The position numbers were made by a program, and so were the translations under genes. Of a DNA stretch of 50,088 bases, positions 8,474 to 47,900 are shown one piece after another; position 1 is the first letter of the stretch; the number at the start of each line of letters is the position of its first letter. Where the stretch lies: contig SHZF01000030.1 of the NCBI GenBank assembly GCA_009692425.1, positions 1 through 50,088 of the forward strand, written 5' to 3'. The notes beneath the pieces are model-generated. The model did no database searches. It saw only the letters and a list, made by a program, of their open reading frames with translations, and was not told the DNA's origin. The DNA comes from Myxococcales bacterium (GTDB taxonomy: Bacteria > Myxococcota_A > UBA9042).

Positions 8474-8502
8474 TTGACCGCCATGGGCTTGTTCGCTAGT
8501 TT
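8474..8502 (+). promoter_or_regulatory. Candidate sigma-70-type promoter of the NHL lipoprotein pair
   Basis: TTGACC (8474-8479) and TAGTTT (8497-8502) are separated by exactly 17 bases. The -35 matches the consensus at five of six positions; the -10 is weak. Transcription would start near 8509, about 46 bases before the ATG at 8555. It lies in the 138-base gap after the radical SAM gene. Confidence 0.4.
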
Positions 8503-8554
8503 GGGTGCCGTCGGGCAGGCATTCTGCCTCGACGTTCCCACCCGGAGCACTTCC

Positions 8555-11268: not shown

Positions 11269-11335
11269 CCCCGCTTCTTACATTCCGCTACCCTGCTCGG
11301 CGCGCGGCCCGCACGCCGCCCTGGCAGCTTCGCAC

Positions 11336-12178
11336 ATGCCCCACGCTCCCCGCTGGACCGGCACGCGCTCCTACCTCGCAGACGAGGCGCTGCAGACCAC
11401 GGTCAACGTCGCCGTCGCACTCGGCCGCCCGCTGCTGGTCAAGGGCGAGCCCGGCACCGGCAAGACGCTGCTCGCCCACGCCATTGCCGACGGCCTGGAC
11501 CTGCCGCTGCTGACATGGCACGTGAAATCGACGACGCGCGCCAGCGATGGCCTGTATCTCTACGACACCGTGGCGCGGCTGAACGACTCGCGCTTTGGCG
11601 ATCGCGACGTGCGCGACATCGAGCAGTACATCAAGCTGGGGCCACTCGGGCTCGCATTTGACCAGTCGATTCCCGAGCGGCGGGTGGTTCTGCTGATCGA
11701 CGAGGTGGACAAGGCGGACCTGGAGTTCCCCAACGACCTGCTGCACGAACTCGACGCGATGCGGTTTCGGGTGGCCGAGACCGGGCGCGAAGTGGTGGCG
11801 CAGGCGCGGCCCATCGTCGTCATCACGTCGAATGCGGAGAAGGAACTGCCCGATGCGTTCCTGCGCCGGTGTGTGTTCCATTACATTGAGTTCCCCGACG
11901 AGGCGCTGCTCGGCCGCATCTGCCGGGTGCACCACCCGCACGTCGAAGACGCCCTGCTGGCCGCGACGTTGCGGCGCTTCTTGCAGGTGCGCTCGATTCC
12001 CGACCTGAAGAAGCGGCCATCCACGTCTGAACTCATCGACTGGATCGCGGCACTCAAGCTGGCGGGCGTCGCGGTCGAGAAGATCGAGCAGGGCGTGCCG
12101 CTGGCGGGCGTGCTGATGAAGCACGAGACGGACTCCCAACGGGCTGCGCGGCTGCGGGCGCCGGCGGCGCGGGGCTGA
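11336..12178 (+). CDS. MoxR-family AAA ATPase
   Basis: 280-residue MoxR-type AAA+ ATPase, a chaperone-like motor that works with VWA-domain partners to insert metals or activate complexes. Walker A is GEPGTGKT (37-44), Walker B is VVLLIDEVDKAD, followed by the family segment LHELD and a sensor-1 ITSNAEKELPDAFLRRC. ATG 11336 is preferred over more upstream positions because homologous sequence begins at about TRSYLADE. The VWA gene starts seven bases downstream of the stop, the classic MoxR-VWA arrangement seen for example with CoxD/CoxE. Confidence 0.9.
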   Translation: MPHAPRWTGTRSYLADEALQTTVNVAVALGRPLLVKGEPGTGKTLLAHAIADGLDLPLLTWHVKSTTRASDGLYLYDTVARLNDSRFGDRDVRDIEQYIKLGPLGLAFDQSIPERRVVLLIDEVDKADLEFPNDLLHELDAMRFRVAETGREVVAQARPIVVITSNAEKELPDAFLRRCVFHYIEFPDEALLGRICRVHHPHVEDALLAATLRRFLQVRSIPDLKKRPSTSELIDWIAALKLAGVAVEKIEQGVPLAGVLMKHETDSQRAARLRAPAARG

Positions 12179-12185
12179 GGCGGCG

Positions 12186-25306: not shown

Positions 25307-28300
25307 CTACGGAACCGAGCTCAGCACCGCACAGCCGACGCATTGCGTCTTGTAGGTGAGCAGATTGCAGCCGATCACCGTGCCCGACATGGTCTTGCAC
25401 GTCGACGACGACGAGAACGTGCTCGAGCACAACCCCGTGATATTGTTGCACGCGTCGATCGTGCAGGCGCACTGGTCGATACACTTCTTCGGCGTGCCGG
25501 CCGTGCACAGGCCCGCCACGCACTTGTCGGTCACCGTGCACGCATCGCCGTCGCTGCACGTCGCCAGGTCATTGTTCTTCTTCTGGCACTTCGCCGTCAG
25601 GTCGCAGAAATCGTCGGTGCACGAGTTTTTGTCGTCGCACGGCGTCGTCACCGTCGGCTTGCAACTGCCGTTCAAGCACTTGTCGCCCGTCGTGCAGGAG
25701 TTGCCGTCGTCGCACAGGCCCGTCGAAATCCCCAGGTACAGGCAAGCGCCTGTCAGTACATTGCAACTGTCCGAGGTGCACACGTTCTTGTCGTCGCAGT
25801 TCACCGCCGTGCCCGCGCACACGCCGAGCGCACACTTGTCGCCCGTCGTGCATGGTTTGCCGTCGCTGCATGTCGCCGTGTTGTTCACCGTTGTGCAATT
25901 GCCCGACACCTTGTCGCAACCGTTGTCGGTGCACGGGGTGCTGATGCAGACCTTCGTGTTCGCGAACGTGCACTTGCCGCCCGCGCAGATGTCGCCGGTG
26001 GTGCAAGCATTGCTGTCGGTGCACGCCGCTGTATTGTTCTTGTGGATGCACGTGCCGAACAAGCAACTGTCATTGGTGCATACTTGGTTGTCGGTGCAGT
26101 CCTTCTGCGTGCCGTTGCACGTGCCGGAACCGCAGACATCGTTGAACGTGCACGAACTCAGGTCGTCGCAGACAAGCGTGTTGTTCACCGTCTTGCACCC
26201 GGTCAGCTTATCGCACGTATTCGTCGTGCAGATGGTGTTGTCCTGGCAGTTCAACGGCGCCAGTGACTTGCACACGCCACTGGTGCAGGTGTCGCCCGCC
26301 GTACACTTGTCGCCGTCGTCGCACGCCACGGTATTGTTCTTGTGGGCGCACAGGCCGGTCAGCGGGTCGCACGAATCGTCGGTGCACGCGTTCTTGTCGT
26401 TGCAGTCCGTCGGCGTACCCGGCAAACAGACCGACGCTTTGCAGATGTCGCCGCTCGTGCACTTGCTCTTGTCGTCGCACGCCGCCACATTCGGCGTCGT
26501 GGTGCAGGTGCCCGTCGCCGGATTGCACTTGTCGTCGGTGCACACGTTGCTGTCGCTGCAGATCACGATGACTACCCCTTTGCATGCGCCCAGGCTGCAC
26601 TTGTCGAAGCCCGTGCAGCCGTTGCTGTCCGAGCACGACGCCGTGTTGTTCACGTACTTGCAGACGCCCGTCGCCGGATCGCACGAGTCGTCGGTGCACA
26701 CGAGGAGGTCCGCGCAGGTCTTGATCTTGCCGAGGCACTTACCGCCCGAAGAGCACGTCGAAGCCAGCGTGCAGGGGTTGCCGTCGTCGCACACGGCACC
26801 AGTCTGAACCACGTTGCTGCACTTGTTCACCGCCCCGAGCACGCAGGCGTCCTTCGTGCAGCCGTCCTTGTCATCGCACTGCGTGTTCAAAGTGCACGCG
26901 CAGGTGAACGGGCCGGCCTTGCAGCCGCCGTCCTTGCACACGTCGGGCGTGGTGCAGATGACGCCGTCGGTACACGCCACGGTGTTGTTCACGTGGATGC
27001 ACGCGCCCGTCGCACCGTCGCACTTGTCGTCGGTGCACGCGTTATCGTCGGAGCAGTTCTTCGGGCTGCCGCCGACGCACGCCCCACCCGAGCAGGCGTC
27101 GACCGCCGTGCATTGGTTGTTGTCGTTGCACGAGACGGTGTTGGGGTTGAACGTGCAAGCGCCACTCAACGCCGTGCATCCGTCCGTCGTGCAAAGCTTG
27201 CCGTCGTCGCACACCTTCTTCGTGCCAGCGCACACGCCGCTGCTGCAGGTGTCGTTCGTGGTGCACAGCGTGTTGTCCGTGCACGGAAGCGCGTTGTTGA
27301 CGTACGAGCACTGGCCGGTCAGCGCCACGCACGAGTCCGTCGTGCAGGACTTCGAGTCATCGCATTTCACGGTCGTGGCCGGCGTGCACGCGCCTGTCTT
27401 GCACTTCTCGCCTGTCGTGCACAGCGTGTTGTCGTTGCATACTGAGCCATCGGTCACGTTGGTCGACGTGCACGCCCCGGTCGATGCGGCACACTTCTCG
27501 GTCGTGCAGGCGTTCTTGTCGTCGCAGACCACCGCGACTTCGCCGACGCACTTGCCGACCGTGCACGTGTCGTTCTTCGTGCACTTGCTGCTGTCGTCGC
27601 ACGGGAGCACGTTGTTCACGAACGCGCACTTGCCGACCGCCGGATCGCAGGCATCCGTCGTGCACGGGACGTTGTCATTGCAATTCAAGAACTTGCCGAC
27701 GCACGCGCCCGACGCGCAGGTGTCCGCCGAGCTGCACAGTTTGCCGTCGTCGCACGGTTCCGTGGTGTTGACGAACACGCACGAGCCGTTGGTGCAAGCG
27801 TCTTTCGTGCAACCGTTCTTGTCATCGCAAACGATCGGCTTGGTCACGCAGGCGCCGGCGTTGCACGCGTCGCCCGTCGTGCAGAGGTTGTTGTCGGTGC
27901 AGGTCGCCGTGTTGTTCTTGACCACGCAGGTGCCCGTCAGCTTGTCGCACGAGTTGTCGGTGCACACGCTCGAGTCGATGCACGGCTTCGCGGTGCCCGT
28001 GCACATGCCGGTTGCGTCGCACTTCGTCAATGGAGTGCACGCGTTGCCGTCGTCGCATGTGGTGCCCGGGAGCGGCGTGTTGACGCAAGTCAGCTTGCTG
28101 AGCGTGGGCTTGCAGGCGTCGGTCGTGCACGAGTTGTTGTCGTTGCAGTCCTTGATGCCGGTCGCGACCGTGCAGGTGCACTGGGCTGCACCCGAGGTGC
28201 AGACGCCCGCCTTGCAGACGTCGCCGACCGTGCAGGGCTTGCCGTCGTCGCACAGTGCCGTGTTGTTGGTCGCCTTGCACTTGCCGGTTGCCGCGTCGCA

Positions 28301-31300
28301 CGAGTCATCGGTGCAGACTTGGTCGTCGTTGCACACGATCGGCTTGCCCGCGCACTTCTTGCTGCTCAGCGAACACGTGTCGCCCTCCGTGCAGTTGAGG
28401 CCGTCGTCGCACGGAAGAGTGTTCTGCGGGTTGAGGCACTTGCCGGTCTTGGGATCGCACGAGTCCGTCGTGCACGGATTGTCGTCCTCGCACTTGACGG
28501 CGATGGCGCCCGACACGCACTTCGTGTCCTTACACGCGTCGCCCGAGGTGCACAGGCTGCCGTCGTCGCACGTTGCCGTGTTCGCCAGCGCCAGGCACGC
28601 GCCCGACTTCAGATCGCAGGAATCGGTCGTGCACGGGTTCTTGTCGTCGCACACCTTGGGCGCGCCGCTGCACGTTCCGGCCTTGCACCCATCTAGTGTC
28701 GTGCACGCAAGGTTGTCGTTGCACGGGTCGTCAACCGGCTTCGTGTCGCACTTGCCGGTCAACGTGTTGCACGTCTCGGCCGTACACGGGTTCGTGTCGT
28801 CGCACGACACCGGCTTGAGCGGCTTGCACACGCCGAGCGAGCACTGTTCGATCGTGCACTCATTTTTGTCGCCCTGGCAGGAGGCCACGTTGTCGACCTT
28901 CGTGCAGCCGGTTTTCGGGTGGCAGGCGTCGTCCGTGCAGACGTTGTTGTCGTTGCACGTCTGCTTGACGCCGACCTGGCACACGCCGCTGACGCACTTG
29001 TCGCCGGTCGTGCACACCGAGTCATCGGCGTCGCACGTCTTGCCGTCGTTGATCGGCGCGACGGAGCACGTGCCGGTCTTCGGTTCGCACTGGTTGGCGA
29101 GGCACGTCGAGTTGCCGCCATCGGGGCAAGCGACGACCGTCTTGGGGTCGATCTTGCACGCGGGCAGCGCCGCGGACTTGTCGCAGAACAGGGTGCCGTT
29201 GCAGAAGTTGCCGTCTTCGGCGCTCGCGCAGTCTTCGTCGGCATTGCAGCCGCACTCGTTCTTGCCGACGGTGCACTTCTTGTCCTTGCAGACGTCGCCC
29301 GCAGTGCACACGTTGCCGTCGTCGCAGCCGTCCGTGTTGGCGACGCTCACGCAGCCAAGCTTGCCGTCGCAGGTGTCGGTCGTGCACACGTTGTTGTCGT
29401 CGCAGGCCTGCGCAACGTCCTTGGCGACGCCCGCGCACTTGCCGTCGGCGCACTGGTCGAAGTCCGTGCACGCATCGGTGTCGTCGCAGGGCGCCACGTT
29501 GGCTTCTTGATTGCAGCCGGTCGCGCCGTCGCATGAGTCATTCGTGCACGGGTTCTTGTCGTCGCAGTCGATCGGCTTACCCGAGCAGGCGCCGTCCTGG
29601 CACGTGTCGCCGGTCGTGCAGGCACTGCCGTCGTCGCAACTGTCGCCTATCGCCTTCGCGATGTTCTTGCACTGGCCGTCCGTCGGGCTGCACTGCGGCG
29701 AGAAGCACGAGTTGTCCGAAGTGCACACCTTCGGCGTGCCGGCGCCGCACTTGCCGCCTTTGCATGTGTCGTTGACCGTGCACAGGTCGCCGTCTTCACA
29801 GGTCGCGGCCTCGTTCGCCTCGTTCTTGCATTCGCCGCTTACGGCATCGCAACTGTCGACAGTGCAGCCGTTGCTGTCGTCGCAGGTCTTTGCCGTGCCG
29901 GCACACGTGCCGGCCTTGCAGGCGTCGGAACCCGTGCACACCGAGCCGTCGTTGCACGCCGTGCCGTCGTCTGCGGCCTTGTTCGCGCAATCGCCCGTGC
30001 CGGAGTCGCAGGTGTCGGTCGTGCACGGATTCTTGTCGTCGCAGCCCCCTGCCGAGCCCGCTGTGCACGCGCCGGCCTTGCACGAATCGCCTACCGTGCA
30101 CTTGTCGCCGTCCGCATCGCAGCCTTTGGCGTCGGCGACTGCCGTACCCGTGCAACCGACCGCGAGGTCGCAGATGTCGTCCGTGCACGCATTCTTGTCA
30201 TCGCACGTCTTCTTGGTGCCGGCCTGGCACTTGCCGTCCTTGCAGGCATCGCCCTCGGTGCACGCGTCGTTGTCGGAGCAGTCGCCGGCGACCGGCGTCG
30301 ATGCACACACTTCCTTGACCGCAGGATCGCAGGTGTCCGTCGTGCACGGGTTGCCGTCGTCGCACGCAGACTCGTCGATGCCACTGTCGCAGTCGTTGTC
30401 CTTACCGTCGCAGGTCTCGGCGACGGCTGCCGCGGCCGAGCACGCCGTCAGGCCGAGGTCGGTGCACTTGCGCTCACCCGTGCAGGTACCGACCGCGTTC
30501 GCCACGGAGCAAGCCGTCGTCAGGCCGGCCGTGACCGCCTCCTTGGAGCAGGAGCAGATGCCAAACACCTTTGCATCAGCGCCGTCGGGCTTGCGAACGC
30601 AGCCCTTGAACGCGCCACCCTCGGTGGGCTGGACGTCGGCGCACACGTAGCCGTCGGGGCATGCCGCCGCTTCCGTGCAGGTGTTCGAGCAGAAGTTTCC
30701 TTGCCCACCACCGTACTCGACGCACGCCGTCTTGCCGGCTTCTCCGCACGCCTTGGAGTCCTTGCACGGGCTGCACTGCGTGCCGCCCGTCGCCTTGGGC
30801 ACGCACACGGCAACGGGCTTGCCATCCTGCGCCAGCACGTCGCACGCGGTGTCGGCGGCACACTTGACTGTCATGCACAGCGCCGCGCACTTCTTGCCCG
30901 ACGGCGTGTCATTGCAGAGCTTCTGCTCGCAGTCCTCGTTCGTCGAGCACGCGCAGCCTTCGGCGTTGCACGTTGCGGTGTCGGTCGCGACGGCTGTGTC
31001 GCCGGAAACGGGGACATCCGACCCGACAGGAGCGTCCGGGTCCATCGGCACGTCCGCTCCGACTGGCACGTCCGCTCCGACTGGCACGTCCGCTCCTACC
31101 GGCGCGTCGTCGGTCGACGGTACGTCGGGCGTCGTCTGTTCGTCGGCGGTCGCCAAGTCCGGGCCGACGGTGTTGTCCACAGCTTGAACATCGACGGGCT
31201 CGGCCGTGTCCGGGCCGGCAGCCAGGTCCGGTCCTGCCGCCGCATCGCCAGGCGCCGCAAGATCGGTCCCCGTATCGGCACCCGGCGCTGCGCCGTCCGC

Positions 31301-31483
31301 TAGGGTTGCGTCCGCCAGTGCGCCATCTGCCTTGGCATCGACACCAGCCGAAGCCGCCCCTTCGGGGCCTTCCGGGTCACCGCAGCGAGCCAGCGCAAGG
31401 GCGAGAGTCGCCAAGCCGGCGAGGGCGAAGCGCGAACGAGCAGACGGACGGGTCGGAATGAAGCGGGGACATGGCCGGTTCAT
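25307..31483 (-). CDS. Giant disulfide-rich repeat lipoprotein (2058 residues)
   Basis: ATG 31483 has AGGAG five bases upstream and a lipoprotein signal peptide ending LALALARC. Residues about 38-170 are a low-complexity Ala/Asp/Pro/Val stalk with a 6-residue tandem VGADVP. A cysteine-rich head follows (CNAEGCACSTNEDC onward), then CDGKDNDCDSGIDE, the metal-binding motif of MopE-like proteins. The remaining about 1700 residues are some thirty copies of a two-part repeat, NPCTTDSCDPxTGxC alternating with ACTTGDTCKxGxC, each with about ten cysteines and many Asp. One irregular module (CNGTLFCDKSA... ending CEPKTGTC) interrupts the array around residues 745-800. Likely a long extracellular, disulfide-locked, possibly calcium-binding stalk; no catalytic domain is seen. 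A shorter paralogue ends at 44925. Confidence 0.88.
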   Translation of the reverse strand: MNRPCPRFIPTRPSARSRFALAGLATLALALARCGDPEGPEGAASAGVDAKADGALADATLADGAAPGADTGTDLAAPGDAAAGPDLAAGPDTAEPVDVQAVDNTVGPDLATADEQTTPDVPSTDDAPVGADVPVGADVPVGADVPMDPDAPVGSDVPVSGDTAVATDTATCNAEGCACSTNEDCEQKLCNDTPSGKKCAALCMTVKCAADTACDVLAQDGKPVAVCVPKATGGTQCSPCKDSKACGEAGKTACVEYGGGQGNFCSNTCTEAAACPDGYVCADVQPTEGGAFKGCVRKPDGADAKVFGICSCSKEAVTAGLTTACSVANAVGTCTGERKCTDLGLTACSAAAAVAETCDGKDNDCDSGIDESACDDGNPCTTDTCDPAVKEVCASTPVAGDCSDNDACTEGDACKDGKCQAGTKKTCDDKNACTDDICDLAVGCTGTAVADAKGCDADGDKCTVGDSCKAGACTAGSAGGCDDKNPCTTDTCDSGTGDCANKAADDGTACNDGSVCTGSDACKAGTCAGTAKTCDDSNGCTVDSCDAVSGECKNEANEAATCEDGDLCTVNDTCKGGKCGAGTPKVCTSDNSCFSPQCSPTDGQCKNIAKAIGDSCDDGSACTTGDTCQDGACSGKPIDCDDKNPCTNDSCDGATGCNQEANVAPCDDTDACTDFDQCADGKCAGVAKDVAQACDDNNVCTTDTCDGKLGCVSVANTDGCDDGNVCTAGDVCKDKKCTVGKNECGCNADEDCASAEDGNFCNGTLFCDKSAALPACKIDPKTVVACPDGGNSTCLANQCEPKTGTCSVAPINDGKTCDADDSVCTTGDKCVSGVCQVGVKQTCNDNNVCTDDACHPKTGCTKVDNVASCQGDKNECTIEQCSLGVCKPLKPVSCDDTNPCTAETCNTLTGKCDTKPVDDPCNDNLACTTLDGCKAGTCSGAPKVCDDKNPCTTDSCDLKSGACLALANTATCDDGSLCTSGDACKDTKCVSGAIAVKCEDDNPCTTDSCDPKTGKCLNPQNTLPCDDGLNCTEGDTCSLSSKKCAGKPIVCNDDQVCTDDSCDAATGKCKATNNTALCDDGKPCTVGDVCKAGVCTSGAAQCTCTVATGIKDCNDNNSCTTDACKPTLSKLTCVNTPLPGTTCDDGNACTPLTKCDATGMCTGTAKPCIDSSVCTDNSCDKLTGTCVVKNNTATCTDNNLCTTGDACNAGACVTKPIVCDDKNGCTKDACTNGSCVFVNTTEPCDDGKLCSSADTCASGACVGKFLNCNDNVPCTTDACDPAVGKCAFVNNVLPCDDSSKCTKNDTCTVGKCVGEVAVVCDDKNACTTEKCAASTGACTSTNVTDGSVCNDNTLCTTGEKCKTGACTPATTVKCDDSKSCTTDSCVALTGQCSYVNNALPCTDNTLCTTNDTCSSGVCAGTKKVCDDGKLCTTDGCTALSGACTFNPNTVSCNDNNQCTAVDACSGGACVGGSPKNCSDDNACTDDKCDGATGACIHVNNTVACTDGVICTTPDVCKDGGCKAGPFTCACTLNTQCDDKDGCTKDACVLGAVNKCSNVVQTGAVCDDGNPCTLASTCSSGGKCLGKIKTCADLLVCTDDSCDPATGVCKYVNNTASCSDSNGCTGFDKCSLGACKGVVIVICSDSNVCTDDKCNPATGTCTTTPNVAACDDKSKCTSGDICKASVCLPGTPTDCNDKNACTDDSCDPLTGLCAHKNNTVACDDGDKCTAGDTCTSGVCKSLAPLNCQDNTICTTNTCDKLTGCKTVNNTLVCDDLSSCTFNDVCGSGTCNGTQKDCTDNQVCTNDSCLFGTCIHKNNTAACTDSNACTTGDICAGGKCTFANTKVCISTPCTDNGCDKVSGNCTTVNNTATCSDGKPCTTGDKCALGVCAGTAVNCDDKNVCTSDSCNVLTGACLYLGISTGLCDDGNSCTTGDKCLNGSCKPTVTTPCDDKNSCTDDFCDLTAKCQKKNNDLATCSDGDACTVTDKCVAGLCTAGTPKKCIDQCACTIDACNNITGLCSSTFSSSSTCKTMSGTVIGCNLLTYKTQCVGCAVLSSVP
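31047..31098. repeat. 18-bp in-frame tandem repeat
   Basis: Two full copies and most of a third of GGCACGTCCGCTCCGACT lie inside the lipoprotein stalk region, encoding VGADVP units on the minus strand. Copies are identical, suggesting recent expansion and possible length variation between strains. Confidence 0.8.
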
Positions 31484-32310: not shown

Positions 32311-34101
32311 CTACTTGGCCGGCTTCGCATCCGGCATCGCCACATACGCGGGCAGGATGTCGACCGGCAGATCCGCCATCGCCGTAATCTTCTCCCGCAA
32401 TTCGCCGGGCATTGGGCCGTACGTGAGGATCAGGCGCCCCGCCCCCTCATAGTCGCCGCGCGCGAGCACCTGCAGCACTTCGAGCGCCAGCTTGCCCAGC
32501 GTTGGTCGCAGCGCCTCGCGCCCGATCTCGAACGTCTTCGTGTCCGGGTTGTAGCGAAACGCATAGCTCGCTGCGAGGTAGTTGTAGACGATGCACTTGG
32601 CCAGCGTTTGCGGCGACCCCTCGGACAGCCGCGCAGCATCGATCAGCGACGCAAGGTACGTCGCAGCGATCGCGGTGTCGGTCTGGTTCTGCAGGTGCCC
32701 CTTGTCGGTGAGGTAGAGCGCGTCCAGCAGCGCCGCGACCTCGCCCTGCAGGCTCTGGATCAGGTCGTAGCGCGCCCGCAGCGCTTGGCGCACGGGGATT
32801 GTGGTGCCGTCTGCCTGCACGATCGGCTTCACCTGCAGGCCGTGCGACAGCTGCCACGTCACGAGAAACTGGAAGTACGCGTCGAACGTGACGAGATCCG
32901 CGAGCTCCGGCTCGAAGATGCGCTGGGCCACGGGGCGCGCCAACGCATCGAACTTGGCCCGCACGACGTTGCGCAGGATGACGCGCTTGGACCCCTTCTG
33001 CGACCGCACCAGTTCGTCGTTCGGCAGCGAGAACGCCCGAATCTGGTAGCCGGAGCGCGCGTCGCCGGCCGTATACAGCACGTCAGCGATCGTAATTGGC
33101 GACGGCTTCGAGATGTCGAAGCGGTCGCGCAGGTGCTCGGGCAGCGCCTTCGATTTGGCCAACTCGTCGTGCAGTTCGAGCAGCTTGGCGAAGCGCGCAC
33201 TCTCCTGAGCGTCGCGATAGTAGACGATGGCTTCAAACGCCGTCTTGAGGCCGAGTAGGCGGTCTTCGTAGTACTCGTAGGGGCCGATCGCGATGTCGAG
33301 CGGGCAGTCGCCGGTATCCATCCACTGCAGTTCGGACTTCTGGTAGCTGTCGGACTGGAGCGCCACGGCGCGCGCCCGCAGGTAGTCGGCGAAGTGAGCG
33401 CACTTGCAGCCGCCGTTGCGCTTGTCGACGCACTTGTAGGCATCGGCCGCCTGCAGCAGCGCGGCGCTGGCCGTGCGCAGGTCTTCGGTCCACACCTTGG
33501 AGTACGGCACGGCCTCGAAGCCGGGGCCCTTGCGCTGCACGACGGTATAGCTCGACCACAGGCTCGGGCCACTCTCCGGATGCTTCGCGATCCAGTCGTC
33601 GATCTCGCGGGCGCTGGCGTCCGACGGGTAGAACGCGGCTCCGGGCGGGCGGCGCTGGCGGCCGAGGAAGGGGGTGTCGTCGCTGTGGCTGTCCCACGGG
33701 CCGTAGTGCAGTTCGAGCAGGCGGGCCAGCCGAGTAGCGTCGGGGTTGGCCGACTTCTGCAGCGTCTGGAGGATCTGGCGCCCGTCATGCGACACCTGGT
33801 CCCAGTAGACGCGATCGATCGCGTCGGCCGCCCGGCGCAGCGGCTCCAGCATCGGCTGCAGTTCCTCAGGCAGCGGGCCGCCGCGCACGCGCAATTCGGC
33901 CCGCGTATAGCGGTTGAGGCGGGCCTGGATCACGGCGGGAGGCGCCGCCGACAACAACAGGTCGGCGTCGGTCGGCGGCGCGGCAAGTGCGGCGCTGGCG
34001 GCCAGGGTGGTCAGGACGGCGGACATCACGGTGGCGACGAGCGAACCGGTCAGCGCCAACGTGCCGGACTGGCGGCGGGAGAGTGGTCGAGCAGCGGACA
34101 T
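32311..34101 (-). CDS. Secreted M49 (dipeptidyl peptidase III-like) homologue lacking the zinc site
   Basis: 596 residues from ATG 34101, which is preceded by GAGG and followed by a signal peptide (cleavage near ALA-APP, residue 40). Homology to M49/Nudix-associated peptidases is visible throughout: LELHYGPWDSHSDDTPFLG, RPPGAAFYPSD, ELQWMDTGDCPLDIAIGPYE, YEDRLLGLKTAFEA, GDARSGYQIRAFSLPND, GSKRVILRNVVRAKFD and VTFDAYFQF. At the place of the family's HExxxH-like site (xHEVxHG) it reads TWQLSHG (residues 415-421): first His is Trp416 and the catalytic Glu is Gln417. The downstream EExKAD zinc-ligand block reads QSLQGEV. It is therefore predicted to be a non-enzymatic binding or structural protein in the periplasm or on the surface. 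The gap of 303 bases to the next gene holds a sigma-54 element. Confidence 0.8.
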   Translation of the reverse strand: MSAARPLSRRQSGTLALTGSLVATVMSAVLTTLAASAALAAPPTDADLLLSAAPPAVIQARLNRYTRAELRVRGGPLPEELQPMLEPLRRAADAIDRVYWDQVSHDGRQILQTLQKSANPDATRLARLLELHYGPWDSHSDDTPFLGRQRRPPGAAFYPSDASAREIDDWIAKHPESGPSLWSSYTVVQRKGPGFEAVPYSKVWTEDLRTASAALLQAADAYKCVDKRNGGCKCAHFADYLRARAVALQSDSYQKSELQWMDTGDCPLDIAIGPYEYYEDRLLGLKTAFEAIVYYRDAQESARFAKLLELHDELAKSKALPEHLRDRFDISKPSPITIADVLYTAGDARSGYQIRAFSLPNDELVRSQKGSKRVILRNVVRAKFDALARPVAQRIFEPELADLVTFDAYFQFLVTWQLSHGLQVKPIVQADGTTIPVRQALRARYDLIQSLQGEVAALLDALYLTDKGHLQNQTDTAIAATYLASLIDAARLSEGSPQTLAKCIVYNYLAASYAFRYNPDTKTFEIGREALRPTLGKLALEVLQVLARGDYEGAGRLILTYGPMPGELREKITAMADLPVDILPAYVAMPDAKPAK

Positions 34102-34199: not shown

Positions 34200-34216
34200 T
34201 GTGGCGAGATTCCACA
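34200..34216. promoter_or_regulatory. Candidate enhancer-binding-protein site
   Basis: Inverted repeat TGTGG-N7-CCACA centred about 105 bases upstream of the sigma-54 -24/-12 element. This is the usual distance for an activator site of a sigma-54 promoter. It lies in the otherwise featureless region between the divergent M49-like and VIT/vWA genes. Confidence 0.35.
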
Positions 34217-34308
34217 CATGTTGATTTTTTCGTCATTCAGTTGCGCGAACAGACTCGGCCCAGGGCGCGCGACCCGGCTGCGTATCGCGGTCGCGGGAAA
34301 TTGTGGGG

Positions 34309-34326
34309 TTGGCACGGAGCCTGCAT
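34309..34326 (+). promoter_or_regulatory. Sigma-54 (RpoN) -24/-12 promoter
   Basis: TTGGCACGGAGCCTGCAT fits the sigma-54 consensus TTGGCACG-N4-TTGCA, with the invariant GG (34311-34312) and GC (34323-34324) separated by exactly 10 bases. Only one position of the -12 box differs (CTGCA for TTGCA). Transcription would begin near 34336, giving a leader of about 70 bases before the ATG at 34405. It would drive the three-gene lipoprotein operon 34405-40801. Confidence 0.7.
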
Positions 34327-34404
34327 AGCTCCTGGATGGTACCACCAGCCCGAGCGGACGGGCCAGGCACAGGCAGCGCGCCCGCGGGCGTCGAGGAGGA
34401 AGTC

Positions 34405-37400
34405 ATGACGGGTCGGAATTGCGGCATCGCTGGACAGAATTGCGTCCTCCCATCGTGGCGCCGGCGTGGAGCAGCGGCGCTCTGCCTCGGCGTCGGACTG
34501 GTGGCGCTCGGGGCGTGCGGTGAGGCCACCGACACCAGCGCAGGAGTTGCAGCCGAACCGGGCTCTGCGGGAGCTGCGATGGCAGACGCGAGTTCGACCA
34601 GCAACCAGGCCGCCTCCGACTCCACCACAGGCAGCGACTCCACCACAGGCACCGGCACCAGCAGCGTGCCGAAGTCTGCCGACGCTGCGGCGGCAGGCGG
34701 TGCCGCGATGGACGCCGCAGGCACTTCCGGCGCGGACGCGGCGGCGCCGGCCGTCTCGGACGAGGACGCCCAGAAACAGGTCTGGCGCAAGATCGTCGAG
34801 TCCACCCCGTTTGCCCAGGTCTCGCTCGGCAACAAGACGAAGCTGTTGCTGCGCGACCTGCGCGTGACGGTGACCGTGGATGGCCTGCGGGTGCGCACGC
34901 TCGTCGATCACATCTACAAGAACCCGACCGCGCAGGTGGTCCAAGGCACGTTTCGCTACGCCCTGCCGCCTGACTCGTCGGTGTCGTACTACGCGATGTT
35001 CGAGGGCCAGGCCGGCATCGCCGACCCACTTTTCTTCGACCCGGGCGACAAGCTCGGCGGCGCGGACGAAGAGACGCTGGGCAGCGCGGCGCCCGAAGAA
35101 GTGAGCCTGAGCGCCAAGAACTGGGGCGTGCCGAAGGAGGCCAAGGTCGCTGGCCAGGTCGCCGCCACCATCGCCTACGAGGAGGAGACGAAAAAGAAGA
35201 TCGACCCTGCGCTGGTCGAAGAGGTGGCGCCGAACACGTTCGAGGCCAAGGTGTTCCCCATCCCGGCCAACGGCTACAGCCGGGTGTTGATCGCGTACGA
35301 GCAGACCCTGCCGCGCACGAAGGACGGCTTGCTGTACACGTTCCCGCTGCCGAAGACCGACGAGACAAAGAAGCTCAACCTGATCGAGACGTTCGACTTC
35401 ACGCTCGTCGCCAAGGTGGCGGCCGTCGGCAGCGTGAAGGCGCTCAGCACAGTCGAAGGCGTCGAGGAGAAGCCCGGCAAGTCGGCGTATCTCGGCCGCA
35501 AGAAGTTCAAGGGCCCGTCGCCGGGCGGCATGCTGGCGTGGGCGTTCGTACCGGTGCAGGGCAATGCCGACGTCGATGCGATCGCCGGCAAGGACCCGGC
35601 GAGCGGCAAGGACTACGCATACCTGCGGCTGCAGCCCAAGCTCGACGATCTGGCCAAGACCAAGGCGGCGGCCAAGCGCGGCGTGATCCTGCTCGACACC
35701 TCGCGCTCGGAGAACAAGCGCTTTGCCTTGTCGATGGCGCTGGCACAGAAAATCCTCGAGCAGGCGCCGGCGCTGGAGCAGTTTGCCGTGGTGACGTTCG
35801 ACGCCGGCGCACGTTGGCTGACGCCCGGCTGGCTGAAGAACGACGCGGGTGGCCGCAAGCAACTGGTCGACACGCTCGACGGCGTCATCTTGGAAGGTGC
35901 GACGGACCTGTCGGCCGCGCTGCGGGCGCTGGCCAAGCCGCCGATGGAAGTGGGCGCGGACAAGCAGATCGACGTGTTCGTGCTGTCGGACGGCGCGCTG
36001 AACTGGGGCGATGTCACCATCGAGTCGATGCTGGCGCGCTTTGGAGCCGAGTCGCCATGGCTGGCGCGCTTCTTCTCGTATCGGCTGGGCATCGGCGGCG
36101 AAAACACGGCGGTCTACCAGGCCTTGGCGCAATCGGGCGGTGCCATCTTCAACTGCGAGGCGGGCGCGCTCGACAAGTGCGCGCCGGCCCACCAGTCCGC
36201 GGGGATCCTGATCAACAGCGTCGATGTCGTCGGCGACGGCCCCGCTGGCGCCCAAGTGGCTGACGTGATCGTGCAGGGCCGTCAGGCGACGCTTTTCCCC
36301 GGTGCGAGCCTGAACCTGGGCCTGCGGGTGGTGAAGCCCGGCGCGGCCAAGGTCATCGTCAAGGGCACGGTGCCGGGCCAGGGCGCCAAGACGCTCGAAT
36401 TGCCGGTCACGCTGGCCGCCACCGGACAACTCGCGCCGCGGGCGTGGGCCGAAATCGCCGTCAACCACCTGCTCGACGCCCACGATGCAAAGCTGGACAA
36501 GTACGCGCTCGCGCTGGCGCAGCACTTCCGGATCCCGAGCCGCATCGCGAGCTTCCTTGTGCTGGAGGACGAAAAGGCCTACCAGAAATACGGCATCGCC
36601 GACGAGTCCGGCAAGCTGGACGGCAAGGACATCGGCGTACTCGTGGCGCAGGCGCTCGCGGTCGCGGGGCAGGCGTGGACGAGTTGGCACCAGTTGCAGC
36701 GCGCACTCGACGACTTCGTGGCGCTGAAAAAGCCCGGCCCTGCAGTCGTCGGCGTGTTCCTGAAGCTGCAAGGGCTCGTGCCGGAAAAGGAACTGCAACT
36801 GCCCGAACCGTCGCTCGCCGTGCCGCTCGTGTACGCCAAGGACCTGCCCGGCCCGTACCTGGTGCTGGTCCAGGCCCAGCAGGACGACGTGTTCGACCTC
36901 GGCCCTTGGAACGACGAAGCCGAGCGGCGCCGCAAGCTGGGCCTGACCGGTGCGGCCGTGCGGGCGCTGTCGACGACCGTGGAGAATAGGCCGCAGGACG
37001 CCGAAGTGGCGCGCCTGGCCGGCTATCGGCTCAAGTCGTGGGGCGAGACGGAGATGGCGGCGGGCTTGTTCCTGGGCGTGCTGAAGAAGCGTCCGTTCGA
37101 GCCGCAGTCGTACCGCGACCTGGCGGCGGCGCTGGGTGTCACGCGGCCAGCGCTGGCGGCGATGCTGTACGAGGCGGCGCTGGCCGGCGACTGGGATGCC
37201 AATTTCAAGTCGCTGAAGGCCGTCGTCGCCGAGGAGTACGCCCTGTTCATCCAGGCGCTCGGCCAGGCCCAGCCGAAGTCGCCCACCCTGCCCTACCTGA
37301 AAGATCGCGCGCAGGTTCTGAAGCTGGAGACGCCGAGCGGCTCGCTGCGCGTGACGCTGACCTGGAACACCGCGGCCACGGACATCGACCTGTGGGTGAT

Positions 37401-37704
37401 CGCACCGACGGGCGAGAAGTGCTTCTACAGCCACAAGCAGTTGTCGGTGGGCGGCAAGCTGCTCGACGACCTGACGCAGGGCTACGGACCCGAGCGCTTC
37501 CAGGCCGATAAGGCGATTGCGGGCAAGTGGGTGGTGCAGGCGCACTACTACGCCAACAACGGCAACGCCTACGCTGCCGAGACGTATGTGAACGCCACCG
37601 TGATGACGCACATCGGCACGCCCGAGGCGGCGATCCAGCACAGCAACGTGGTGCTCAAGAAGAAGGGCGACGTTGCCATGCTGGCCGAGGTGTTCTTCAA
37701 GTAG
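34405..37704 (+). CDS. VIT / vWA / DUF2135 lipoprotein
   Basis: 1099-residue lipoprotein. GAGGAGG lies just before ATG 34405; the signal peptide ends LVALGAC. After a Ser/Thr/Ala-rich linker (to about residue 125) there is a VIT domain (about 135-245, LRDLRVTVTVDGLRVRTLVD and FRYALPPDSSVSYYAMFEG), a vWA domain (about 425-590) whose metal site LLDTSRSEN keeps DxSxS, a helical, TPR-like region, and a C-terminal DUF2135-like beta domain (about 1005-1099, VTLTWNTAATDIDLWVIAPT). VIT-vWA pairs occur in inter-alpha-trypsin-inhibitor-like adhesion proteins. First gene of an operon of three lipoproteins; the next starts 44 bases downstream. Function is probably protein binding at the cell surface. Confidence 0.85.
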   Translation: MTGRNCGIAGQNCVLPSWRRRGAAALCLGVGLVALGACGEATDTSAGVAAEPGSAGAAMADASSTSNQAASDSTTGSDSTTGTGTSSVPKSADAAAAGGAAMDAAGTSGADAAAPAVSDEDAQKQVWRKIVESTPFAQVSLGNKTKLLLRDLRVTVTVDGLRVRTLVDHIYKNPTAQVVQGTFRYALPPDSSVSYYAMFEGQAGIADPLFFDPGDKLGGADEETLGSAAPEEVSLSAKNWGVPKEAKVAGQVAATIAYEEETKKKIDPALVEEVAPNTFEAKVFPIPANGYSRVLIAYEQTLPRTKDGLLYTFPLPKTDETKKLNLIETFDFTLVAKVAAVGSVKALSTVEGVEEKPGKSAYLGRKKFKGPSPGGMLAWAFVPVQGNADVDAIAGKDPASGKDYAYLRLQPKLDDLAKTKAAAKRGVILLDTSRSENKRFALSMALAQKILEQAPALEQFAVVTFDAGARWLTPGWLKNDAGGRKQLVDTLDGVILEGATDLSAALRALAKPPMEVGADKQIDVFVLSDGALNWGDVTIESMLARFGAESPWLARFFSYRLGIGGENTAVYQALAQSGGAIFNCEAGALDKCAPAHQSAGILINSVDVVGDGPAGAQVADVIVQGRQATLFPGASLNLGLRVVKPGAAKVIVKGTVPGQGAKTLELPVTLAATGQLAPRAWAEIAVNHLLDAHDAKLDKYALALAQHFRIPSRIASFLVLEDEKAYQKYGIADESGKLDGKDIGVLVAQALAVAGQAWTSWHQLQRALDDFVALKKPGPAVVGVFLKLQGLVPEKELQLPEPSLAVPLVYAKDLPGPYLVLVQAQQDDVFDLGPWNDEAERRRKLGLTGAAVRALSTTVENRPQDAEVARLAGYRLKSWGETEMAAGLFLGVLKKRPFEPQSYRDLAAALGVTRPALAAMLYEAALAGDWDANFKSLKAVVAEEYALFIQALGQAQPKSPTLPYLKDRAQVLKLETPSGSLRVTLTWNTAATDIDLWVIAPTGEKCFYSHKQLSVGGKLLDDLTQGYGPERFQADKAIAGKWVVQAHYYANNGNAYAAETYVNATVMTHIGTPEAAIQHSNVVLKKKGDVAMLAEVFFK

Positions 37705-37748
37705 GCCGGAGGTTTCGGCGACTCGATCGCGGCGAGCAGGAGGATGAG

Positions 37749-39047
37749 ATGCAGACGCTCCAACACATCGGCCGACTCCGGGTGCCTCGCATGGCCCGCG
37801 CTGGGGTCGCGTGCTCAGCGTGGGCGGTGTGGGCGGTGGGCGTTTCGCAAGGGGGCTGCATCCAGGTGGTCAACCCGCACGCGGCCGACTCGGCGCCGGG
37901 CCCCGACGCCCACACGCCCGAAACCGAGAGCGTGCCCGCAGCGGATGCCCAGCGCACTGTGAACAAGAAGCCAGACGTCGCTACGGCGCCCGACCTGTGG
38001 AGCCCTCCGCCGCGGCGCAATCCGCAGGCCTTCCCGCCCCTGTTTACGGGGCTCGCCATCGGCAACGCGACCGGCCAGCAGCTTGTCGTCCGGGTGCGCG
38101 CGCTGCGCAAGACCATCGCGCTGGACTGTGCCACGGTCAGCCAGGCGCCAAACGTGTGGCTGTCGCGCGCCCTGTTCGCTCCGGCGCGGACGTGGCTGGT
38201 GGCGGCGGGGCGCGCGTTTGCTCCGGTGCAGCCGGGCGACGGCCCTGCGCTGCCGTGTACGGCGCTGCTGGTGGACGGGTCTGGGCTGCCGATGCGCCTG
38301 GTGTTCTGGCAGCACGCAGACTACCCGCCCACGCAGGTGCCGTCGGTTGTGCAGGGGCCGCCGGCGGGCCGCATGCTGGCACTCGGGCCGCAAGGCGATG
38401 GACTGGACTTTGGCAAGCATCCCGCCATGTTCGCCGCCCCGCCGCTGGTCGATGCCGGCCTTGCCCCGGGCTGTGAACAGCCTGACGATGGCAACGCGCT
38501 CGCGTGGTCCGAACCGCTGCCCCAGGGCGACGTCACCGTACTCGACGTGGAGTCCGCGCCAAACGGCTGCCACGCGCTCGAACTGTTGGCAAAGACGGGC
38601 ACCCTTCTGTGGACGGTGTGCCTGCCGCCGGCCGCCAAGTTCCCGTTCGAGCCGGGCGATGACATTTTTGCCAGTCCACTCACAGGCGGCCACAACCTGG
38701 GCCCAGTCAAGGGCCTCGATCTGGTAGGCGATGGCAAGCGGGTGCGCTTCGGGCGTGGCGAAGATGTCGTCTACTTCGGCAAGGCGGTGGCCAAGCTGGT
38801 GGTGACGCCGGCGTGCGGCGCGGCCCACGATGCCTGCGGGGGCACGCTGCAGCCAGTCGAGGTCCAGGTCACCCTGCCCGGCCAGAAGCCCAAGGTCGCG
38901 CTGCCCGGTGGCCAGGTGCAGACCGCCGACAAGGCGACGTTGCACCTCGTGCGCTCGTTCGACGCCAAGGTCCACGACAAGGCTTGTACGGGTCCGTTGC
39001 CCGGCACGCGCGTGGTCGAGTCCGTGTTCGTGGAGGAACTGCCATGA
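37749..39047 (+). CDS. Lipoprotein of unknown function, middle gene of the vWA operon
   Basis: 432 residues. AGGAGG is five bases before ATG 37749; a nearby ATG at 37744 is in another frame and leads to a short ORF. A hydrophobic signal segment (VACSAWAVWAVGVSQGGC) ends at a plausible lipidation Cys. After a Pro/Ala/Asp linker the protein has about eight scattered cysteines and strand-rich sequence (LFTGLAIGNATGQQLVVRVRAL). I recognise no family. Its stop overlaps the start of the next gene by four bases (ATGA), so both are translated together. Presence in all homologous operons would argue that it is a partner of the vWA proteins. Confidence 0.75.
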   Translation: MQTLQHIGRLRVPRMARAGVACSAWAVWAVGVSQGGCIQVVNPHAADSAPGPDAHTPETESVPAADAQRTVNKKPDVATAPDLWSPPPRRNPQAFPPLFTGLAIGNATGQQLVVRVRALRKTIALDCATVSQAPNVWLSRALFAPARTWLVAAGRAFAPVQPGDGPALPCTALLVDGSGLPMRLVFWQHADYPPTQVPSVVQGPPAGRMLALGPQGDGLDFGKHPAMFAAPPLVDAGLAPGCEQPDDGNALAWSEPLPQGDVTVLDVESAPNGCHALELLAKTGTLLWTVCLPPAAKFPFEPGDDIFASPLTGGHNLGPVKGLDLVGDGKRVRFGRGEDVVYFGKAVAKLVVTPACGAAHDACGGTLQPVEVQVTLPGQKPKVALPGGQVQTADKATLHLVRSFDAKVHDKACTGPLPGTRVVESVFVEELP

Positions 39048-40801
39048 CGAGTCTACGCCATGCAATGGTGGCCATTTTCCTGCTCGCGTGGCCGAGTGGC
39101 TGTGTCGTCAATCCGGTGCCGACGCCGGGCACGATGCGGGCGGGCGGGGCCGCAAAGACGGCGACGGAAGACAACGACTTCCAGGCCAAGGCCGAGGCGG
39201 CGAAGGCAGACGCCACAACCGCCAGCGACTCCGCGGGAGCCGCTGTGCCCGCGGGCATGGACACGTCATCGGCAGACGCTGTGGCCGCAGCCGATGCGTC
39301 GGGCGGCGGCGACAGTGCGCTGACCAACCCCGATGCCCCGCCGGAGCCGGGCGCCACGGGCCTGTCGCAAGCCGGGGCCCAGGATTTCGGCCTGTTCCGC
39401 AAGATTCTCGAAGCGGGCGGGATTCCTGCGCCCAAGGTGCTCGATGACCTCGGCTTCTTCGCCGAACACAAGCTCGACTACCCGGCGCCGAAGTGTGGCC
39501 AAGACATGTGCATGCACCCCTTGCTCGGCATCATGGGCAACATGATCACCGGGTCGACCTGCACCGTCCTGCAAGTTGGACTCAACACGCCGATCACAGT
39601 GGACAAGCTCGCGCGCCCGCCGCTCGATCTGGTGGTCGCCATCGACACGTCGAGTTCGATGGCCGGCGCGCCGCTCGCCTACGTGCAGCAGGGTCTGCAG
39701 CAGATGCTCGACCACCTGCAGAAAGACGACCTCGTCTCGATCGTCGCGTTCGCCGACAGCGCGCAGACCGTGGTCGATGCCAAGGGGCTCGCCAAGAAGA
39801 TGGACATCGAGAAGGCCATCTTGCAGATGCAGGCGGGCGGCCAGACCAACCTGTTCGCGGGTCTGTTCCACGCATTTCAACTCGCCGCCAAGGCCAAGAA
39901 GCCGGGGCGCCAGACGCGCGTGCTGTTCCTGTCCGATGGCGCGGCGACGGCGGGCCTGCTGCAACCGGCCAAGCTCGTGTCGCTGGCGGTGGGCTACGCG
40001 AAAATGGGTATCGGGATCACGACCGTCGGCGTCGGCATGGCGTTCGAGGTGCAGGTGCTGAAGGACCTGGCCGAAGTGGGCGCAGGCAACTTCTACTTTC
40101 TCGACAAGCCCGCGGGCGTCAAGGAGGTGTTTGCCGAGGAGGTCGAGACGTTCATGGTGCCGGTCGCGCTCGACGTGGGCATCGACGTCAAGGTAGCGCC
40201 GGGCTACGTGCTGCGCGGCGTGTACGGCACCCACGGCTGGAAGGGCGGTTCAGGTGGGGGCAAGATCTCGATCCCGACGCTTTTCCTGGCCGGGCGCACG
40301 AAGGCCGAGGACCCGCTGCCGGGCATGGGCGAGGGGCGACGCGGCGGCGGCGGGGCCATCCTCATCGAGTTGATCGCGCTGCCGGGTGTGGTCGCGGGCG
40401 GCAAGGCGGTCGGCTCGCTGGCGCTGACCTGGACGCATCCGCTGACGGGCAAGGTCGTGACGCAGACCGCCGAGGTCGATGGCCCGATCAAGCCGGGGGA
40501 GCCGGTGCTCGATGGCGGCTACTTCTCGCACCCGACGGTCGAGAAGGGGTTCGTGATGCTGAACCTGTTCGCGGCGTTCACGATGGCCGCTGCGCTTGCC
40601 CACGATGCCGACCCAGGCGCGGCGCAAGGCGTGCTGCTGGCGCTGCAGGACGAGGTGCAGAAGTGGCTGAAGAAGACGACCAAGCCGGACCCGGACATCG
40701 TCGATGACCTGAAGTATGTGGACCTGTTCGTGTTGAACCTGAAGAAGGCGGCGAACCAGACACCGATCAGCAAGCCTCCGGAGCCTTGGCCGAAGGATTG
40801 A
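39044..40801 (+). CDS. vWA-domain lipoprotein
   Basis: 585-residue lipoprotein: signal peptide MTSLRHAMVAIFLLAWPSGC, then an Ala/Asp/Glu-rich linker. The vWA domain (about residues 180-350) starts LDLVVAIDTSSSMAG, a complete DxSxS metal site, with LVSIVAFADSAQTVVD, GGQTNLFAGLFHAF and TRVLFLSDGAAT. Beta-rich sequence follows, resembling the regions after vWA in YfbK-like proteins (FLAGRTKAEDPLP, EGRRGGGGAILIELIALPG). Last gene of the operon, coupled to the previous by ATGA; GGAGG precedes the start. A surface or periplasmic metal-dependent protein-binding role is inferred. Confidence 0.87.
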   Translation: MTSLRHAMVAIFLLAWPSGCVVNPVPTPGTMRAGGAAKTATEDNDFQAKAEAAKADATTASDSAGAAVPAGMDTSSADAVAAADASGGGDSALTNPDAPPEPGATGLSQAGAQDFGLFRKILEAGGIPAPKVLDDLGFFAEHKLDYPAPKCGQDMCMHPLLGIMGNMITGSTCTVLQVGLNTPITVDKLARPPLDLVVAIDTSSSMAGAPLAYVQQGLQQMLDHLQKDDLVSIVAFADSAQTVVDAKGLAKKMDIEKAILQMQAGGQTNLFAGLFHAFQLAAKAKKPGRQTRVLFLSDGAATAGLLQPAKLVSLAVGYAKMGIGITTVGVGMAFEVQVLKDLAEVGAGNFYFLDKPAGVKEVFAEEVETFMVPVALDVGIDVKVAPGYVLRGVYGTHGWKGGSGGGKISIPTLFLAGRTKAEDPLPGMGEGRRGGGGAILIELIALPGVVAGGKAVGSLALTWTHPLTGKVVTQTAEVDGPIKPGEPVLDGGYFSHPTVEKGFVMLNLFAAFTMAAALAHDADPGAAQGVLLALQDEVQKWLKKTTKPDPDIVDDLKYVDLFVLNLKKAANQTPISKPPEPWPKD

Positions 40802-44924: not shown

Positions 44925-47900
44925 TCAGAATGGTGTGACCCGGACCGCATCGACCCAAAGGAACTGGCAGCCGTTGTTGGGCGAGCCCACGTTGCCCAGC
45001 ATCACCCGGTTCGCGCCGAACAGATTGCCCGAGAACAAGGGGACCCACGACCCACTGCCGGCATCTTTCTGGTTCACCGGCACCGTGGTGTCCGCGCCCG
45101 CGTCGTACTTGAGCCGGTACGTGGAGTCCGAGACGTAGCTCGAACTGCCGCCGCTGCAGCCCGTCAATCCACCGCCCGCGCCGACGGTCGGCTTGAAGGC
45201 TTCGACCTTCCAGTTACACTTCAACGACGCGCCGAACGGCCACTCCACGAAGGCGGACTGCGCGCTCTTCGAGAACATCATCAGCATCGCGCCACCTTGG
45301 TAGCCGCTCAGGTAGAGCCGGTCGAAGCACGACTTGCCCGCACACGAAGTCGAAGTGGTGGCCGAGAACTGGGGGTCGGGAGCGCACGAGTAGCACCCGG
45401 TGCACGTGCCGTTCCATTTGTCGCCGCTCGTTTTCTTGTCGCACCCGTCCACGATGAATTGCGAGCGCGACGTGCAGGTGCCGGCCACGCACACCGAGGT
45501 ACCGCCGCACGGCGTGCATTCGGCCTCTGCGACACACTTGCTCAAGCTGCATTTCTTGCACGGCCCGCACGTGACGCTCGCGCAGGGGTCGCACGCGCTG
45601 GCGTAGTTCGCACAGCAGTCGCCGCCACCCTTGCATCCGCTGTCGCAATTGCAGATGCCCGAGCCCTGCCCTTGGAACACGCCGCAATTCCCTGTGCACG
45701 ACGTGAAATACGTCTTGCAGGTGCCATTCAGGCATTTCTGGTTCGACGACCCGCACACGACGCCGTTCGTCACGTTGGCTTTCGTGCAGCCACCGGCTGC
45801 CACGCTGCACGCCTCGGTCGTGCACTTGTTGTTGTCGTCGCAATCCTTCGGCGTGCCGCCGGTGCACGATCCGCCGCTGCACGACTCGCCTGTGGTGCAG
45901 GGGTTGTTGTCGCTGCACGACCCGCTGGCGGGCTGCGACGAGCACGACCCATTCGAGCACACGCCCTGCTTGCACGTCCCATTCCACGCGTCGCAGTTCT
46001 TCGCGCCGCCGCCCTGGCACGAGCCGCCCTGACACGAATCGCCCAGGGTGCACAGGTCGTTGTCGCTGCACGAGCCGGCCTTGAACTGCTTGCCGCACTG
46101 GCCGCCCTGGCAGACCCCGGTGTTGCAGGTGTCGCCTTGCCACGCACAGTTCATCGGCGGCCCGGCCTTGCACGCGCCGACACTGCACACATCGCCTTCG
46201 GTGCACGGGTTGTTGTCGTCGCAAGCGCCGCCGCTGGCCGGGGCGTACACGCAACCCTTCGCGGCGTCGCAATTGTCGTTGGTGCACGGCTTGTTGTCGT
46301 CGCACGGCTTCGGCGTGCCGGCCGCACACGCGCCGCCCTGGCATTTGTCACTCTCCGTGCACGCGTCCTTGTCGTTGCACGCCGTACTGTTCGGCGTTGG
46401 CGCGCAGCCCTTGCCCGCCTGGCACTTGTCGTCGGTGCACGCGTTGCCGTCGTCGCAATTCTTCGGTGGCCCGCCATTGCAGGCGCCGCTGCCGCACACG
46501 TCGGGCCCGCTGCACGGATCGCCGTCGTCGCACGCTTTCGAGTTGTTCGAGTAGGTGCAGCCGCCCTTGACGTCGCACACGTCGTCCGTGCACGGCTTGT
46601 TGTCGTTGCAGTCGCCAAACTTCGTGCCCGCGCACTTGCCATCCTTGCACGTGTCGATGTCCGTACACGCGTCACCGTCGCTGCACGGCGCCGCGGCATT
46701 CGTGTGGGCGCAGCCGACGGCCGGGTCGCACGTGTCCAGGGTGCAGGCGTTCTTGTCGTCGCAGTCTATCGCCTTGCCGCCCACGCACTTGCCCGCCGCA
46801 CACGCATCGCCGCCCGTGCACGCGTTGCCGTCGCTGCAAGCGCCCCCGTTCGCCGGCAGGTGCGTACAGCCGCCCTTGGCCGCGCAGTCGTCGAGCGTGC
46901 ACGGGTCCTTGTCGTCGCAGTCCGCCTTGCCACCGGCGGCGCACGTCGATTCCTTGCAGACGTCGCCGACCGTGCACGCGCTGCCGTCGTCGCAACCGGC
47001 GCCGCTGGCCGACTTCGTGCACGCGCCCGTCTTGGGGTCGCAGCCATCGTCGGTGCAGGCGTTGGCGTCGTCACAGCCCTTCGCGGGCCCGGCGCCGCAC
47101 TTGCCGTCCTTGCACTTGTCGGCGACCGTGCACGGCGCCCCGTCGTCGCACGGCTGCACGTTGTTTTCGTGGGTGCAGCCCGTCTTGGCATCGCAGGCGT
47201 CGTTCGTGCAGCCTTCGCCGTCGTCGCAGTCCTTTTTCGGTCCCGGCGTGCACACCGTCGCCGTGCACGCGTCGCCGACCGAGCACACGCTGCCGTCGGC
47301 GTTACACGGCGCGCCATCGACCATGGGCTTGAACTTGCACGCACCCGTCTTCAGTTCGCACTGGTTTTTTTCACACAACGTGTCGGCGCTGGCGTCGCAT
47401 TTGACGACGGTCTTGGGGTCCACCGCGCACTTCTTTTTCGGGCCTCCACTCGCCAGGCACTTCACCGTGCCGTTGCACGGGTTGCCGTCGTCGAGCCCGA
47501 CGCAATCGGCGGTCTCGGCACAAAACGTGCACTCGGCCAACGTCTCATCGTCGGCGTTGATGCAGCCCTGTTTCTTGTCGCAGGAGTCTTTCGTGCACAC
47601 GTTGCCGTCGTCGCACTCGTCGGGCTTCAGCGCACCCGCGCACACCGCGCCCTTGCAGAGGTCGGCCTTGGTGCACGCATTGCCGTCGTCGCACGGGTTG
47701 CCGTCGTCCGCGGCTTGCGCGCAGCCCTTGGCGGCATCGCAGCTGTCTTTCGTACACGGGTTGCCGTCGTCACATTTCTTGGCGGCGCCGGGCTCGCACA
47801 CGCCATCCTGACATTGGTCGCCCTCGGTACACGCATTGTCGTCGGCGTTGCAAGCCGAGCCGCTGACGTTCTTGTGCGTGCAGCCGTCGCCGGACGGGCC

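Follow-up and report, generated by a model that had tools for sequence, protein, structure and literature searches.

How is a row of three genes for predicted lipoproteins, two of them with vWA domains, switched on, and what do the products do? Myxococcota make dozens of surface proteins, many of which have no known role or control, and the P1-P2-P3 locus raises both questions for one such set. The window, which is the whole stretch of DNA that was analysed (50,088 nucleotides), is contig C53 of the 4.94-Mb assembly G000 (96% complete). The features of the locus are listed in Table 1.

Table 1. Predicted control elements and genes of the P1-P2-P3 locus, in window coordinates.
Feature	Coordinates	Strand	Description	Support
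Enhancer-like dyad 1, TGTGGCGAGATTCCACA	34200..34216	+	17-bp dyad common to seven trio promoters and regulator-locus promoters	
Enhancer-like dyad 2, TGTTGATTTTTTCGTCA	34219..34235	+	In tandem with dyad 1	10/12 to dyad consensus
Sigma-54 -24/-12 element, TTGGCACGGAGCCTGCAT	34309..34326	+	Conserved in orthologues	10/11 consensus positions
P1	34405..37704	+	1099-aa VIT-vWA lipoprotein, DUF2135-like C-terminus	Pfam VIT, VWA_2
P2	37749..39047	+	432-aa lipoprotein, family unrecognised	No Pfam or NCBIfam match
P3	39044..40801	+	585-aa vWA lipoprotein, near-invariant C-terminal tail QTPxSKPPEPWPKD	Pfam VWA, 9e-18

The gap between P1 and P2 is 44 bp, and P2 and P3 share a 4-bp ATGA overlap, the start of P3 lying inside P2 as the initial annotation had read it. 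The search for a conserved trio that this annotation had proposed found the same gene order in six other loci (L035, L036, L037, L038, L039 and L042); the overlap was present in five of them, with a short gap instead in L037. P1 and P2 alone were found at L040, while eight further loci, among them a second copy in G000 (contig C126), have the P2-P3 pair and no P1, and three have P3 with no recognised P2. A P1 homologue from another family (L041) was accompanied by neither P2 nor P3. The P2-P3 pair would be the core unit, P1 having been added in the source family, and the three genes are probably co-transcribed as one operon. One of the pairs without P1 (L166, genome G015) has its own sigma-54 site (10/11) and dyad (11/12). 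In several such pairs P2 begins with an apparent multi-spanning membrane region, not a lipobox; the N-terminal hydrophobic region of the P2 relatives at L168, L169 and L174 carries the motif LNDHxxK...TGKLSDxxG, which suggests a membrane-embedded version of P2.

Several neighbouring genes were also recorded. The divergent gene at 32311-34101 (-), which shares its intergenic region with the enhancer-like dyads, gave weak matches to peptidase M49 and CiaB. Very large proteins of 2058 and 1310 aa, both rich in Dictyostelium-type CTDC repeats, are encoded on either side of the trio region, at 25307-31483 (-) and 44925-48857 (-). A row of genes at 8474-13400 (+), encoding two NHL beta-propeller proteins, a MoxR-type AAA ATPase and a vWA (CoxE-type) protein, resembles the ternary MoxR-vWA-beta-propeller systems that Pfam names and gave a weak bpMoxR match.

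P1 had been described as a VIT-vWA-DUF2135 lipoprotein. The VIT domain (39.8 bits against a Pfam cut-off of 26.5; 5.7e-10), the vWA domain (VWA_2, 27.5 bits against a cut-off of 27; 5.1e-6) and a standard lipobox were all found; DUF2135 stayed below its cut-off of 22, both in P1 (16.6) and in one orthologue (20.1). The descriptions of P2 as an unrecognised lipoprotein and of P3 as a vWA lipoprotein were upheld: their lipoboxes are irregular in G000 (QGGC and PSGC, respectively), but the lipobox cysteine is retained, and most orthologues have a standard lipobox. In eight P2 sequences this cysteine and several internal cysteines were invariant. Orthologues were 43-58% identical for P1 and 59-69% for P3. 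The DxSxS motif noted earlier in both vWA domains was found together with the T and D of the MIDAS in P1 and P3 of all orthologues read, with T replaced by S in two; none of the orthologues read has lost either metal site, so that, given the fold, metal-dependent binding is to be expected.

All seven trio members of P3 end in QTPxSKPP[E/D]PWPKD, the extreme C-terminus PPEPWPKD (40760-40801) being nearly invariant, and a PWP-like tail ends most P3 paralogues and distant relatives. This conservation suggests a binding or assembly tag, and PPEPWPKD might serve in sorting or docking. Sequence searches against solved structures gave no match for P1 and only vWA-bearing proteins for P3. Structure predictions from two-sequence alignments (pLDDT of 28 for P2 and 41 for P3) were too poor for a fold search, and neither DUF2135 nor DUF2330 was mentioned in the literature searched.

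The near-consensus -24/-12 element of the initial annotation was the only such site in the window. It reads TGGCAC-N5-CTGCA, with the -24 GG and the -12 GC correctly spaced, and TTGGCACGGAGCCTGCAT had one match in the window and one in the 4.94-Mb assembly, with none expected in shuffles. A looser pattern allowing two mismatches was no commoner than chance; the strength of the site therefore lies in its near-perfect match and its conservation. The best coding-strand sites of the seven P1 loci with sites, which span three genera, scored 10 (G000), 9 (G010), 11 (G014), 10 (G019), 11 (G021), 10 (G008) and 9 (G011) out of 11 and lie 60-105 nt ahead of the start codon; a score of at least 10 is expected 0.009 times per 300 bp. 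The initial reading had been made to depend on conservation of the element upstream of orthologues, and a site of 9-11 of 11 was found upstream of six of the seven other P1 orthologues with upstream DNA. The weakest (L037, in G010) scored 9/11, with TGGCCT in place of TGGCAC, and no good site was found upstream of the P1 homologue L041. A P3 homologue of another family (f9; L172, 5404-5470) has no dyad, and its sigma-54-like site (10/11) lies about 65 nt ahead of the start. The rpoN gene is present in the genome.

Farther upstream, the initial annotation had noted a TGTGG/CCACA palindrome, which proved to be one of two 17-bp dyads in tandem. When all 4096 hexamer dyads with spacers of 0 to 10 were scored in the seven 250-bp upstream regions, the best was TGTTGA-N5-TCAACA, with a total of 72; in 60 Markov shuffles the top score over all dyads with spacers of 3, 5 and 7 had a mean of 64.8 (sd 1.2) and a highest value of 68. 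The consensus, TGTtGA-N5-TCaACA, was found upstream of all seven trio promoters. Most promoters have a second copy, commonly 17-19 bp away, and the tandem layout recurs in relatives. By itself, dyad 1 of the window reaches a score of only 9; scores of at least 9 are expected by chance in 2.7% of 180-bp stretches overall and in 13.5% of AT-richer ones, and scores of at least 10 in 0.2-0.3%. In the 21 best sites each of the five spacer positions was A or T in 81 to 100% of cases, which is independent support for a real, albeit predicted, binding site because the spacer was not used in scoring.

It is very improbable that these elements are leftover similarity and that a housekeeping promoter drives constitutive expression of the genes. 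No sigma-70-type match was found in the promoter region, and the motifs persist while the upstream DNA around them is barely alignable, being otherwise near chance similarity at the P1 loci with the exception of the L035/L036 pair. Furthermore, the same pair of motifs marks unrelated genes.

One of these genes led to a candidate for the enhancer-binding protein that the initial annotation had recommended looking for. Three genomes were scanned for the dyad, with the consensus derived from the trio promoters as in all later scans, and the matches were read. In G008 and G019 a dyad and sigma-54 pair preceded a gene adjoining an enhancer-binding protein, as it did at the orthologous locus in G000, where the putative regulator P0006 (G000:C125:5083-6639) has a receiver domain, an AAA+ domain with GAFTGA and a Fis-type HTH. 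P0006 matched the AtoC, NtrC and PrsR models, below every cut-off. The order at this locus, as read in G000 and G008, is the sigma-54 gene, rlmN on the opposite strand and the regulator. Close relatives of the regulator (53-65% identity) were found in 19 of the 22 family genomes, G000 counted, including all seven with the trio. Fourteen of the 18 family regulator loci read have a neighbouring target gene with a -24/-12 site of at least 10/11 and upstream dyads, and in 13 of those 14 the target was read as MYXO-CTERM-like. In G003 the dyad and promoter stay with the target gene, and the regulator sits on a different contig.

No regulator gene was found adjacent to the trio in any of the genomes read, and the link between the two is therefore based on the operators that they share and on synteny; a single PF00158 match was listed on a trio contig, at a distance of 14 kb (G008:C451). 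The lack of linkage would fit a different arrangement, in which sigma-54 control is real and another of the roughly 16 regulators of the genome binds the dyads, the C125 protein merely adjoining one target. There are indeed 16 PF00158 matches in G000, and similar dyads can be common to related Fis-type regulators. Against this, a convincing dyad and sigma-54 pair was seen only at C125 among the 12 regulator loci read in G000, and the pairing at the C125-type locus is kept in 14 family genomes; another regulator was accordingly considered unlikely. The C125 protein is the most likely regulator in G000. Among seven neighbours scanned at the G019 and G008 loci no sensor kinase was recognised (six were other enzymes or DUF2520 and one was unmatched), nor was one recognised at L065, where the neighbours scanned encode a peptidase, RlmN, a lipoprotein with no match and a protein kinase.

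The extent of the regulon was assessed by exact patterns, which makes the target list incomplete. There were 29 exact sigma-54 sites in G000, compared to five in the reversed control. Five of the 29 have a dyad of at least 9/12 within 220 bp; all five precede genes for exported proteins, lie 51-103 nt ahead of a plausible start codon and have at least one dyad of 10. The predicted targets are the trio, the MYXO-CTERM-like gene for a Cys-rich protein next to the regulator, the genes of two DUF2330 proteins whose tails are MYXO-CTERM-like, and that of a lipoprotein containing several Kazal domains. Across 22 family genomes the combined dyad and sigma-54 pattern gave 11 matches at 10 places, compared to two matches in the reversed control. 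Predicted targets in relatives included a DUF2330-like protein, two further orthologues of MYXO-CTERM-like type, a vWA lipoprotein resembling P3 (33% identity to P3), a more distant one with 27% and other lipoproteins. Several other exact sigma-54-like sites in G000 (L103, L113, L117 and L120; also L105, L119 and L123) look to be borne by dispersed repeats, since they precede a recurring out-of-context reading frame (ASGRALRRWSGCC) or have a common TTGGCACGGAAGTTGCT sequence.

The MYXO-CTERM sorting tag occurs across Myxococcota (PMC11980579). The tails of the co-targets have its layout, a Cys signature, a transmembrane helix and an Arg-rich end, and scored 15.2 and 15.5 with TIGR03901, below the cut-off of 20; above the cut-off, TIGR03901 was found at eight places in G000 and at none in 14 control genomes. 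The surface function proposed initially is strengthened by this set, in that the predicted co-regulated genes encode proteins of exported or surface type. The tandem enhancers, the probable cognate regulator and the wider regulon go beyond the initial reading.

The nature of that surface function is less certain. Adhesion or assembly is the most likely reading because of the domains, and a metal-dependent role of this kind is put forward tentatively, at somewhat under an even probability. A serious rival, judged less probable still, is that the regulon is a protective envelope response, a shield against proteases or attack by prey or host. The VIT-vWA arrangement of P1 is the core of ITIH proteins, P3 weakly matches ITIH4 in sequence and, with several Kazal domains in a predicted co-target, the combination recalls the inter-alpha-inhibitor arrangement of animals. 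However, the parallel holds at the domain level only, a single inhibitor gene was seen, and the remaining targets have no known protective role.

Taken together, these results make it likely that the trio is a sigma-54 operon controlled by the C125-type NtrC regulator through tandem dyads, and an accessory target of a family-wide surface-protein regulon. In the proposed mechanism the regulator, an NtrC-type response regulator, would be phosphorylated by a kinase and, bound to the two dyads (TGTtGA, five AT-rich positions, TCaACA) about 90-110 bp upstream of the -24 element, would hydrolyse ATP and open the promoter, from which sigma-54 RNA polymerase would transcribe P1-P2-P3. We infer that the products are exported, namely a lipid-anchored VIT-vWA protein, its Cys-containing partner P2 and a second vWA protein, and that they probably form a complex on the outer-membrane surface, in which the vWA metal sites may serve ligand binding or assembly. 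The same switch would bring out the Cys-rich MYXO-CTERM-like protein, the DUF2330 proteins, other vWA lipoproteins and the Kazal-inhibitor lipoprotein. Since the operator is defined, the regulator gene named and the list of targets short, this switch can be tested directly in a heterologous host, and the regulon gives a handle on what uncultured bacteria display at their surface, and when.

Relatives of parts of this system were sought among described ones. At the level of the protein, P1 resembles the marine sortase target TIGR03788 and animal ITIH in having a VIT domain followed by a vWA domain with an intact metal site, but it scored 47.6 bits against the TIGR03788 cut-off of 551.65, is lipoprotein-anchored and continues after these domains into a long C-terminal region, the last part of which is DUF2135-like. 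In Myxococcus xanthus, Nla28 is likewise an enhancer-binding protein whose tandem sites lie upstream of sigma-54 promoters (PMC9765219); its half-site, CT[C/G]CG[C/G]AG, is arranged as direct repeats (PMC9765219), whereas the trio has a 17-bp inverted dyad. The HsfBA phosphorelay of the same species, in which the NtrC-like HsfA directly controls PilY1 proteins (PMC9109919), is similar in that a Myxococcota NtrC-like regulator acts on surface proteins, and PilY1.3 has a putative vWA domain (PMC9109919). It differs in its pilus-protein targets and in the operon partner kinase of HsfA; no kinase gene was recognised beside the regulator of the trio regulon.

The closest known arrangement is PrsK/PrsR-RpoN. 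In the PEP-CTERM regulon a spacer separates a 17-nt motif, sometimes repeated, from a sigma-54 site that lies about 70 nt ahead of the start codon, and the regulator is NtrC-like (PMC1569441); RpoN dependence has been demonstrated for one of its genes (PMC9850573). Both systems combine an NtrC-type regulator, sigma-54 sites, a 17-nt upstream motif and surface-sorted targets scattered over the genome. Membership of the trio regulon in the PrsR system was rejected: the regulator scored 361.9 and 372.1 bits against the TIGR02915 cut-off of 502.6, and the operator differs, the PrsR motif ending in TTTACA (PMC1569441) and the 17-nt motif of the trio regulon in TCaACA. The kinase PrsK (TIGR02916), whose gene usually adjoins that of the regulator, had no match in 21 family genomes, in a search in which no positive control gave a signal. 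The PrsR targets are PEP-CTERM proteins; those predicted here are MYXO-CTERM-like proteins and lipoproteins. The predicted trio regulon is a new form of an already known arrangement of regulator, sigma-54 and surface proteins, and it suggests that a second lineage, using a different operator, also came to place a set of surface proteins under a single sigma-54 regulator. It may well be an undescribed, family-wide sigma-54 programme of Myxococcota, in which one NtrC-type regulator acts through tandem TGTtGA-N5-TCaACA sites on a surface-protein set that includes a self-contained vWA complex of three lipoproteins, the Myxococcota counterpart of PrsR and the PEP-CTERM proteins.
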